From: Mangrovimonas xylaniphaga
Lineage (GTDB): Bacteria; Bacteroidota; Bacteroidia; Flavobacteriales; Flavobacteriaceae
DNA length: 64,000 nucleotides
Reading direction: 5' to 3'
Assembly: GCF_001280435.1 (NCBI RefSeq)
Contig: NZ_LBIP01000017.1
Span: 62,001 to 126,000 of the forward strand
Shown here: one piece after another, positions 5,652 to 59,490 of the stretch
Position numbering within the stretch: the stretch's first letter is position 1
How the letters are laid out: every line of letters starts with the position of its first letter
The notes under the pieces: generated by a model
What the model saw: only the letters and a program-made list of their open reading frames with translations
Told to the model about the DNA's origin: nothing
The model's database searches: none
Translations under genes and position numbers: made by a program

Positions 5652-6533
5652 ATGCATAAAGCAGGTTTTGTAAATATCATAGGAAATCCAAATGTGGGGA
5701 AGTCTACCCTCATGAATGCCTTTATAGGAGAGAAATTGTCAATTATCACTTCCAAGGCGCAAACTACAAGACACCGTATTTTGGGGATTGTAAATGGGGA
5801 AGATTTTCAGGTGGTGTTGTCGGACACGCCGGGAATCATTAAACCTGCCTATGAGTTGCAGGAATCCATGATGGATTTTGTGAAGTCCGCTTTCGAAGAT
5901 GCCGATGTGCTTTTGTATATGGTGGAAATTGGAGAGCGCGAATTGAAGGATGAAGCGTTTTTCAAAAAAATTCAATCGTCAAGCATTCCTGTATTGTTAT
6001 TACTGAACAAAATCGATAAGTCCGATCAAGGGCAATTGGAAGAGCAGGTGCAATTGTGGGCCGAAAAGGTGCCAAATGCGGAAATCTATCCTATTTCGGC
6101 ATTGGAAGGTTTTCAGGTGAAGGAGGTCTTTGATCGTATCATTGAATTGTTGCCAGAATCACCACCGTTTTATCCAAAGGATCAGTTGACTGATAAGCCG
6201 GAACGTTTCTTTGTGAATGAAACCATTCGTGAGAAAATTTTACTTCACTATAAAAAAGAAGTGCCTTATGCCGTTGAAATTGATACAGAAGAATTCTTCG
6301 AAGATGAGGATATCATCAGGATGCGTTCTGTAATCATGGTAGAGCGCGATACCCAAAAAGGAATTATCATTGGGCATAAAGGATCGGCGCTTAAGCGAGT
6401 GGGTATAGAGGCAAGAAAGGATTTGGAGAAGTTTTTCGGGAAACAGGTACATCTGGAATTGTATGTGAAAGTGAATAAAAACTGGAGGACTAATCAAAAG
6501 CAGCTCAAGCGTTTTGGATATAATCAGAAATAA
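5652..6533 (+). CDS. era: GTPase Era
   Basis: 293 residues from the ATG at 5652; the open frame extends upstream to 5475 but that part lies over hutG and its promoter. G1 motif GNPNVGKST near the N-terminus, effector loop with TTRHRILG, G3 DTPGI, G4 NKID, then a C-terminal KH domain containing IIIGHKGSALKRVG and ending in KVNKNWRTN. Era binds the 3' end of 16S rRNA and assists 30S maturation. The anti-Shine-Dalgarno end it recognises is also the site affected by bS21 (rpsU, this window). It is followed by an intrinsic terminator and then der. Confidence 0.97.
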   Translation: MHKAGFVNIIGNPNVGKSTLMNAFIGEKLSIITSKAQTTRHRILGIVNGEDFQVVLSDTPGIIKPAYELQESMMDFVKSAFEDADVLLYMVEIGERELKDEAFFKKIQSSSIPVLLLLNKIDKSDQGQLEEQVQLWAEKVPNAEIYPISALEGFQVKEVFDRIIELLPESPPFYPKDQLTDKPERFFVNETIREKILLHYKKEVPYAVEIDTEEFFEDEDIIRMRSVIMVERDTQKGIIIGHKGSALKRVGIEARKDLEKFFGKQVHLELYVKVNKNWRTNQKQLKRFGYNQK

Positions 6534-39530: not shown

Positions 39531-39560
39531 TTGCAATTAATGGATTACTTCTTATATTTG
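39531..39560 (+). promoter_or_regulatory. rpsU promoter
   Basis: TTG (39531-39533), 19 nt, TATATTTG (39553-39560): an ideal flavobacterial promoter. A leader of about 35 nt with a strong Shine-Dalgarno follows. Confidence 0.7.
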
Positions 39561-39581
39561 CCAACCGAAAAATTCTAAAAG

Positions 39582-39590
39582 AGAGGAGGT
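39582..39590 (+). promoter_or_regulatory. Strong Shine-Dalgarno of rpsU
   Basis: AGAGGAGGT, with GGAGG ending 10 nt before the ATG. Other ribosomal and polymerase genes of the window start in A/T-rich leaders without any such site. bS21 of Flavobacterium johnsoniae is reported to cover the anti-Shine-Dalgarno of 16S rRNA, and rpsU translation is reported to be autoregulated through its own site. Confidence 0.85.
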
Positions 39591-39599
39591 TAAGACACT

Positions 39600-39794
39600 A
39601 TGTTAATTATACCAATTAAAGAAGGAGAAAATATAGATAGAGCGCTAAAACGTTACAAGCGTAAATTTGATAAAACAGGTACAAAGCGTGCATTGCAAAC
39701 TAGAAAGCAGTTTACTAAGCCATCAGTAGAGCGTAGAGCTCAAATTCAAAAAGCTCAATATATCCAGACTCTTAGAGATCTAGAAAACATCTAA
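39600..39794 (+). CDS. rpsU: 30S ribosomal protein bS21
   Basis: 64 residues: MLIIPIKEGENIDRALKRYKRKF, then KRALQTRKQFTKPSVERRAQIQKAQY, the full Bacteroidota bS21. It has its own promoter and terminator, so it is monocistronic. In this phylum bS21 helps hide the anti-SD end of 16S rRNA on the 30S platform, which explains why most genes lack SD sites. The strong SD before rpsU fits a feedback loop in which ribosomes without bS21 favour rpsU translation (known mechanism; its presence here is inferred from the site). Confidence 0.97.
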   Translation: MLIIPIKEGENIDRALKRYKRKFDKTGTKRALQTRKQFTKPSVERRAQIQKAQYIQTLRDLENI

Positions 39795-39817
39795 GAATTA
39801 ATATATTCTTAATTAAA

Positions 39818-39843
39818 ATCCTGCAATCGCAGGATTTTTTTTT
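39818..39843 (+). terminator. rpsU terminator
   Basis: Stem ATCCTGC (39818-39824), AATC loop, GCAGGAT (39829-39835), then nine T. Confidence 0.9.
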
Positions 39844-39901
39844 GCCGTTACTTAAGTAAATAATACTTTGTAATTTTAATGATATTCATTCCATAGAGAA
39901 T

Positions 39902-40798
39902 ATGTCCATAATAGCTTTTACAGATTACCTACTGCACGAAAAGAAATATGCCCTACTTACTATAAAGGCATATTCTAAAGATTTGGGAGACTTTCAAGAA
40001 TTTATCGCTTCGGAATACGGAGAACAGTCGTTACAGGATTTAGAGTATCGACAAATACGAACCTGGATTGTTTTCTTGGTAGAAAAGGGAATAAGTAACC
40101 GCAGTATCAATAGAAAGGTATCGTCCTTGAATTCCTATTATAAGTTTATGGTGAAGATAGGGGAGATGGAAAGTAATCCATTGGCTAAACATAAGGCGCT
40201 AAAAGCTCCAAAAAAGGTACAGGTTCCTTTTTCCGAAGACGAGATGAATTCGGTAATCACGGCACTGCAATGCGAAACCGATTTTGAAGGTCTGCGTGAC
40301 CGTTTGATCATAGAGCTGTTTTATGCAACTGGTGTAAGGAGGATTGAATTGGTACAGTTGAAGGTGGCTGATTTGGATTTAGCTAATAAAACGTTAAAAG
40401 TTCTAGGGAAGCGAAATAAAGAGCGTATCATCCCGTTAATAGATTCTGTGGTGCAAACAACCAAGCAGTACCTTGAGGTAAGAAGTTCTTTAGATAATAT
40501 TGTGGATGAAACGTTTCTTTTTTTGACAAAAAAAGGTGTGAAAATTTACGAAACTCTTGTTTACAGAATTATAAATGATTATTTTAGTAGGGCATCTACA
40601 AAAGTAAAAAGGAGCCCTCACATATTGCGGCACTCGTTTGCCACACATTTACTAAGTCAAGGTGCAAATATGAATGCAGTAAAAGAACTTCTTGGGCATT
40701 CCAGTCTTGCAGCAACACAGGTTTATACCCACAACAGTATAAACGAGTTGAAAAAGGTGTATTCAAACGCACATCCAAGAAGTAAAAAACACGAATAG
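39902..40798 (+). CDS. xerC: Tyrosine recombinase XerC/XerD type
   Basis: 298 residues. N-terminal SAM-like core-binding domain, C-terminal catalytic domain with R146 (TGVRRIEL), K170 (LGKRNKERIIP), H240-x-x-R243 (HILRHSFATH), H266 (LLGHSSL) and the nucleophile Y275 (TQVYTH). All catalytic residues are intact. The neighbourhood (rpsU before, hpf and the tRNA-tuf operon after) is a conserved chromosomal site, so this is the housekeeping dimer-resolution recombinase rather than a phage integrase. Assignment to XerC versus XerD is by context only. Confidence 0.92.
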   Translation: MSIIAFTDYLLHEKKYALLTIKAYSKDLGDFQEFIASEYGEQSLQDLEYRQIRTWIVFLVEKGISNRSINRKVSSLNSYYKFMVKIGEMESNPLAKHKALKAPKKVQVPFSEDEMNSVITALQCETDFEGLRDRLIIELFYATGVRRIELVQLKVADLDLANKTLKVLGKRNKERIIPLIDSVVQTTKQYLEVRSSLDNIVDETFLFLTKKGVKIYETLVYRIINDYFSRASTKVKRSPHILRHSFATHLLSQGANMNAVKELLGHSSLAATQVYTHNSINELKKVYSNAHPRSKKHE

Positions 40799-40939
40799 AT
40801 AATTGTTCAATGTCTAACCATTAAGAATGAAGGATTGCATCCATACCTATAGCAGAATTTAATTTTTTAAATAGGAATTTGAAAAATTAAATTTTTTTTA
40901 TGGGCAGCGGTCTTACATTCTTTTTAAATTTTTAAACAT

Positions 40940-41242
40940 ATGAAAGTAAACACACAGTCAGTCAACTTTAATGCAGACAAAAAGTTGATAGCGTTTATCC
41001 AAAAGAGAATGGATAAATTAGATTTATTTTATGACAGGGTTATCCAGTCTGACGTATTTCTGAAAGTGGAAAATACTAGTGCTAAGGAGAATAAAATCTT
41101 CGAGGCCAGGGTAAGTGTTCCCGGAGATAGTCTTGTCGTTAAAAAACAATGCAAGACATTTGAAGAAGGGGCCGATAGTGCCGTTTCATCCTTGGAGCGC
41201 CAACTCAAAAAGCGAAAAGAAAAATTAAGAACACATATATGA
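40940..41242 (+). CDS. hpf: Short ribosome hibernation promoting factor (HPF/RaiA)
   Basis: 100 residues of the S30AE/HPF family: VNFNADKKLIAFIQKRMDKLDLFYDRVIQSDVFLKVE, then FEARVSVPGDSLVVKKQCKTFEEGADSAVSSLERQLKKRKEKL. It has only the ribosome-binding domain, so it is a short HPF or RaiA type that blocks the A/P sites of resting 30S. It lies between xerC and the tRNA-tuf operon. No clear -7 box precedes it. Confidence 0.92.
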   Translation: MKVNTQSVNFNADKKLIAFIQKRMDKLDLFYDRVIQSDVFLKVENTSAKENKIFEARVSVPGDSLVVKKQCKTFEEGADSAVSSLERQLKKRKEKLRTHI

Positions 41243-41342: not shown

Positions 41343-41416
41343 GCCGATATAGCTCAGCTGGCTAGAGCAGCTGATTTGTAATCAGCAGGTCGTGGGTTCG
41401 AGTCCCTCTATCGGCT
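41343..41416 (+). tRNA. tRNA-Thr(TGT)
   Basis: 74 nt. Acceptor GCCGATA pairs with TATCGGC, discriminator T, anticodon loop TTTGTAA gives TGT, T-arm with GTTCGAGTC. CCA is not encoded. An identical copy lies at 59413-59486. First tRNA of the tuf operon. Confidence 0.95.
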
Positions 41417-41460
41417 CAAGTTCTTTAAGAGAAATGATCTAAAATATTGTAAAAACCATT

Positions 41461-59412: not shown

Positions 59413-59486
59413 GCCGATATAGCTCAGCTGGCTAGAGCAGCTGATTTGTAATCAGCAGGTCGTGGGTTCGAGTCCCTCTATCGGCT
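59413..59486 (+). tRNA. tRNA-Thr(TGT), second copy
   Basis: 74 nt, identical base for base to 41343-41416. It has its own promoter and terminator, so it is a single-gene unit. Confidence 0.95.
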
Positions 59487-59490
59487 CTAA

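Follow-up and report, generated by a model that had tools for sequence, protein, structure and literature searches.

Autoregulation of the ribosomal protein bS21 has been described for Flavobacterium johnsoniae. Ribosomes without bS21 expose the anti-Shine-Dalgarno (anti-SD) sequence and translate rpsU better, and an extended Shine-Dalgarno sequence (SD) is needed for the effect (McNutt 2023, PMC9976891). According to the same study, Bacteroidia ribosomes make no use of SDs, either in vivo or in vitro, SD reporters go up upon mutation or depletion of bS21, and Tyr54 of bS21, stacking on A1534, steers the 16S tail into its pocket. Strong, top-ranking rpsU SDs were reported there for about 80 % of the Flavobacteriales. 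One criterion for an SD-autoregulated rpsU is that its leader pairs with the rRNA at less than -13 kcal/mol; others are the top rank among ribosomal protein genes, an intact anti-SD (CCUCC), Tyr54 and conserved pocket residues in bS18 and bS6. Two further publications (PMC8710568, PMC10783764) agree with this account of bS21/SD autoregulation. PMC9976891 refers to a single rpsU for F. johnsoniae; its discussion mentions three bS21 paralogs in Francisella tularensis, and the paralog-bearing taxa named in that discussion include none from the Bacteroidota. No report of a pairing of one SD-bearing with one SD-less bS21 copy was found in open-licence full texts.

The rpsU gene in the window, i.e., in the whole stretch of 64,000 nucleotides that was analysed, is taken alone an ordinary case of the published mechanism, expected and not new. 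A search of the genome with the Pfam model revealed two bS21 genes, the window copy and a second one elsewhere. The features are as follows.

39531..39560, plus strand: Bacteroidota-type promoter TTG-N19-TATATTTG, read from the sequence, with TTG at 39531 and TATATTTG at 39553-39560
39580..39590, plus strand: extended Shine-Dalgarno sequence AGAGAGGAGGT, 11 bp with the 16S 3' tail of relatives, one of them G-U
39600..39794, plus strand: rpsU (class A), ribosomal protein bS21 of 64 aa, identified by TIGR00030, the genome search with PF01165 and the translation
39815..39838, plus strand: intrinsic terminator, a 10-bp stem followed by a T run, from scan and fold
G000:C11:81396-81587 (L002 1468-1662), minus strand in L002: second bS21 gene (class B), PF01165 with 56 bits at a cut-off of 27

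The rpsU product scored 51.9 bits against TIGR00030 (cut-off 28.95), and its translation contains Tyr54. The assembly yielded no match in a search for 16S rRNA, thus the anti-SD tail was taken from relatives. Among 12 16S loci of relatives, ten contained ...AACACCTCCTTTCT...; these ten come from six genomes, one of the same genus. The two loci without the searched string were partial 16S matches. The CCUCC core was seen in the congener as well as in the five other relatives. With the tail ACACCUCCUUUCU, the rpsU SD formed 11 bp at -17.6 kcal/mol (calculated with RNAduplex, not with free_scan), below the published threshold, and the distance from AGAGAGGAGGT to the ATG was 9 nt. The gene resembles F. 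johnsoniae rpsU in the extended SD, its near-uniqueness in the genome, the anti-SD core as known from relatives and Tyr54; it differs in having an SD-less bS21 gene beside it in the genome. The promoter assignment follows what we take to be the Bacteroidota consensus; a scan for E. coli-type promoters found 3 at an expectation of 3.0. The terminator scan found 1 at an expectation of 0.3, and the region 39795-39850 folded with -14.2 kcal/mol (z -4.3). Folding of the leader gave nothing notable (z +1.1), thus a riboswitch-like structure is not suggested, and only tRNAs reached Rfam gathering scores in the window. Directly 3' of rpsU (39902-41242) lie a XerC-like recombinase and a ribosome hibernation factor, followed by tRNAs and tuf. 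Two tRNA-Thr genes of the window, at 41343-41417 and 59413-59487, both have the anticodon TGT.

The original prediction had read this locus as autoregulation of the F. johnsoniae type. As the mechanism was already published, this was a correct recognition: the signature of extended SD, own promoter, short leader and own terminator stands, but the reading has to be amended by the second, SD-less bS21 gene and loses its proposed tie to era. The era gene, brought up for acting on the same 16S 3' end, lies 33 kb away at 5652-6533 and has no SD (+0.7 kcal/mol); sharing a 64-kb window is no evidence, and the link is a coincidence.

The assumption that rpsU is the only gene with a strong SD was borne out. 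Pairing energies of -1.3 to +1.6 kcal/mol were obtained for tuf, alaS, rplK, rpoB and the ORFs at the positions of rplA, rplJ, rplL and rpoC, all of which had been described as lacking an SD. The 14 other starts checked beside rpsU were all between -1.3 and +2.0 kcal/mol, and among the window ORFs only rpsU had a strong pairing at the first ATG. A larger sample of 344 kb, the window and 14 other stretches of the genome, comprised 318 ORFs; a first-ATG SD of -13 kcal/mol or lower was found for rpsU alone, though a mock region gives one as well. Taking the best of many possible starts per ORF, six ORFs including rpsU reached -13 kcal/mol, the other five at GTG codons (four) or at an internal ATG (one) and none at the first ATG. 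Both strands of the 344 kb together contained 158 sites at or below -13 kcal/mol, a number that would allow a chance match before rpsU. The rpsU SD, however, is the strongest of the 158, is suitably spaced from the start codon and recurs before every one of the 107 class A genes described below; this conservation rules a chance match out, and its probability is practically nil.

A genome-wide scan, proposed earlier as a check for equally strong genes, led to the same result. The pattern RAGGAGGT-N4-10-ATG occurred at 35 sites and was rarer than its reversed control with 54. All 35 sites were inspected: 33 fall within open frames that run for 267 codons or more from stop to stop, those in frame with a long ORF appearing internal on closer reading, and the remaining two are rpsU and a non-coding site preceding just 10 codons. 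Hence rpsU is the only convincing gene start in the scan. The non-coding site, GAGGAGGTTATGATG with its 10-codon ORF (L346, about position 1500, minus strand; G000:C5:702344-702358), lies ahead of a sugar-kinase-like gene, the kinase being recognised by eye. The shorter pattern GGAGG-N3-11-ATG was commoner than its control and not depleted (1013 versus 682, taken as plain pattern counts). The top rank of the rpsU SD refers to the ribosomal protein genes of the window, the sampled ORFs and the pattern scan. Several candidates for further SD genes were rejected. The strong site in L351 sits within a lipoprotein-like signal peptide (by eye), those in L336, L352, L353, L358 and L361 are in frame inside longer ORFs with upstream start codons, and that in L354 is followed by an ORF of 88 codons, out of frame with the 286-codon open frame around it. 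The ORF at L244:4328 had a first-ATG pairing of -12.6 kcal/mol, a value nearly matched in two mock regions (two of -12 kcal/mol or lower). As an extended SD is carried by few other genes, if any, SD use is a clean reporter in this lineage.

In many other bacteria strong SDs cause high initiation. The rpsU SD might likewise do no more than drive high expression in this species, with no regulatory switch. This explanation is improbable in our view: tuf, rplK and rpoB have no SD in this genome, and PMC9976891 reports both that SDs go unused by the ribosomes of Bacteroidia and that mutation or depletion of bS21 raises the output of SD reporters.

The protein encoded by the second bS21 gene is 59 % identical to the window bS21 and identical to its counterpart in Mangrovimonas sp. 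TPBH4. No SD was found in its leader, and upstream only a poor promoter-like match was seen by eye. Its neighbours are a DUF2797 gene and an AsmA-like gene whose match falls short of the Pfam cut-off. Since an SD-less second bS21 gene exists, autoregulation of rpsU need not be the sole control of the bS21 supply. From the sequences we regard it as probable that two genes together supply bS21, with the window rpsU as the autoregulated, SD-bearing copy that acts as a top-up sensor over an SD-less baseline. As in F. johnsoniae, in replete ribosomes the 16S tail would be hidden in the bS21-bS18-bS6 pocket and initiation on rpsU would be poor; in ribosomes short of bS21 the exposed anti-SD would pair with the extended SD, and bS21 would be made until the pocket is filled. 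The second gene encodes a bS21 with the pocket residue Tyr54 and, having no SD, could be translated by ordinary ribosomes at whatever bS21 level. The model assumes that the class B protein is incorporated into ribosomes. If so, this protein should occupy the same pocket and lower the output of the window rpsU; the SD-less copy would supply bS21 independently of the shortage signal, bypassing and probably repressing the SD copy. Such an arrangement offers a natural experiment on the purpose of bS21 autoregulation. Like Francisella tularensis, the genome has more than one bS21 gene and mixed ribosomes are possible, but in the present case there is a systematic difference in SD status between the copies, and the lineage is one whose SD signals a shortage of bS21.

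A survey of the family placed the two genes in a wider context. In the following, class A denotes the type of the window rpsU and class B that of the second gene. bS21 was found in 287 of 299 sampled genomes, drawn by the search tool and not by phylogeny, and two or three bS21 genes were present in 112 of the 299 (hand count from the survey table). At least two copies were measured in 107 of these 112 genomes; G027, G041, G165, G232 and G263 were not fully measured owing to a weak or stop-containing second match, a cut by the contig end or an unfetched sequence. Exactly one copy at or below -13 kcal/mol was observed in 106 of the 107 measured multi-copy genomes and none in one (G290). A subset of 32 further multi-copy genomes, three of them also among the 78 carrying both classes, had mostly paralogs unlike class B; 31 showed exactly one copy at or below -13 kcal/mol, G290 none. 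Dozens of related species pair an SD copy with an SD-less copy, and a few seem to keep only the SD-less one.

The two classes were sharply separated. All 107 class A genes had an SD of -17.2 kcal/mol or lower. They were not sampled at random: 78 come from genomes also having class B, and the other 29 belong to the top 30 Pfam loci by score in the search of the family. Class B comprised 88 genes, of which 83 reach 73 % identity or more with the copy of the present genome and five (G022, G042, G053, G085, G098) are more divergent; none of the 88 was below -13 and one was below -8 kcal/mol. TANNTTTG was present within 110 nt upstream of 107/107 class A versus 16/88 class B genes. In class A it lay 30-39 nt before the ATG in 100 of 107 cases, accompanied by TTG at N17-23 in 76 of 107. 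Tyr54 was kept in both classes without exception (107/107 and 88/88). One class A gene was left out of the 107, as it has ACG where ATG is expected, behind AGAGGAGGT (L060, identical with L514, genome G205); the ACG is either an SD-helped non-standard start or a sequencing error.

The term SD-less is not absolute, since weaker SDs were found in one class B copy (G154, -9.8 kcal/mol) and in two extra copies of G117 and G196 (-10.2 and -12.0 kcal/mol). Outside class B, 40 extra copies had an SD above -13 kcal/mol; position 54 was His in six of them (L470, L472, L474, L487, L493, L510) and Phe in two (L491, L504), the His54 copies L472 and L474 being the two with intermediate SDs. With eight of 40 extra copies lacking Tyr54, the paralogs may differ in how they fill the pocket.

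In a quick tree of these short proteins (about 64 residues), class B formed one branch with an SH-aLRT value of 99, while class A was unresolved as a branch; a divergent single-copy bS21 of the same family (C_L408) fell inside the class B branch. In Escherichia coli, the macromolecular synthesis operon has the order rpsU-dnaG-rpoD. The relatives studied here share with this operon a bS21 gene near a primary sigma factor gene, but in them an rpoD-like ORF is followed directly by the class B rpsU, the SD-less copy. In the 500 nt before the class B start, 46 of 88 cases showed an RpoD-like ORF, and in 39 of these no more than 41 nt separate the two genes; for a sample upstream ORF, RpoD models remained below their curated cut-offs and the general sigma-70 model exceeded its own. 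Phages carry bS21 genes, and the second gene could be phage-derived, a remnant of ribosome hijacking; four phage records match it with 49-55 % identity. These matches are only distant and led us to reject a phage origin as very unlikely, as class B-level scores occurred in 3 of 395 genomes of the host's taxonomic class, all in its own family, an rpoD-like ORF stands before 46 of the 88 class B genes and the copy of the present genome sits beside the AsmA-like and DUF2797 genes.

A more serious objection to the two-gene model is that the window rpsU is autoregulated as published and the second gene is a tolerated paralog of low expression without cross-talk. The poor promoter-like match before the second gene and the presence of TANNTTTG in just 16 of 88 class B leaders fit this reading. 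Against it, class B is conserved: among three congeners, its genes differed per pair in 2-3 synonymous and no non-synonymous codons, those of class A in 4-6 synonymous and 0-1 non-synonymous codons. Tyr54 in all 88 class B proteins and the close position behind an rpoD-like gene in many genomes (gap of at most 41 nt, 39/88) also speak against a mere paralog. Furthermore, class B was the only bS21 match in seven genomes rated 99 % complete, thus it probably suffices there. Judged from these genomes, class A seems dispensable in some lineages, fitting class B as a working bS21, although contig gaps could hide a class A copy and gene loss is not a proof of function. In a scan of class B-only genomes for ARAGGAGGT-N4-11-ATG, all 12 sites inspected in G193, G091 and G294 were internal to open frames of 137 codons or more; the sites of G138, G157, G195 and G296 were left out. 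Altogether we consider the tolerated paralog unlikely.

The two-gene model is supported by the strength and uniqueness of the rpsU SD, the sharp split between the classes, the 106 of 107 genomes with one SD copy, the kept Tyr54, the conservation among congeners, the single class B branch, the seven class B-only genomes and the mechanism of PMC9976891. The missing 16S sequence of the genome, the intermediate SDs, the His54 and Phe54 copies and G290 without an SD copy count against it. As a tentative extension, which we regard as possible, a one-sensor rule may hold in Flavobacteriaceae with several bS21 genes: one SD copy would be combined with one or two SD-blind baseline copies, one class of them often behind rpoD. 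Swapping the copies would give two kinds of ribosomes, and paralogs without Tyr54 would keep the anti-SD accessible and activate the sensor copy. If true, this would be a built-in switch of ribosome composition rather than a plain feedback. The question of specialised bacterial ribosomes becomes testable in this lineage.

Class B leaders showed further peculiarities. A TTTAGGATAATCCTAAAA-like palindrome lies 20-40 nt before class B rpsU (e.g., L068, L074, L153), often overlapping the rpoD stop. Considering the last 70 nt of each leader, 30 of 88 class B genes had the pattern GGR-N2-5-YCC versus 0.85 % of mononucleotide shuffles, an excess that is not all regulatory because part of it is coding. 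In L067 and L070, class B stands behind an AsmA-like gene and the leaders are by eye still similar to an rpoD end, as if the gene had been moved.
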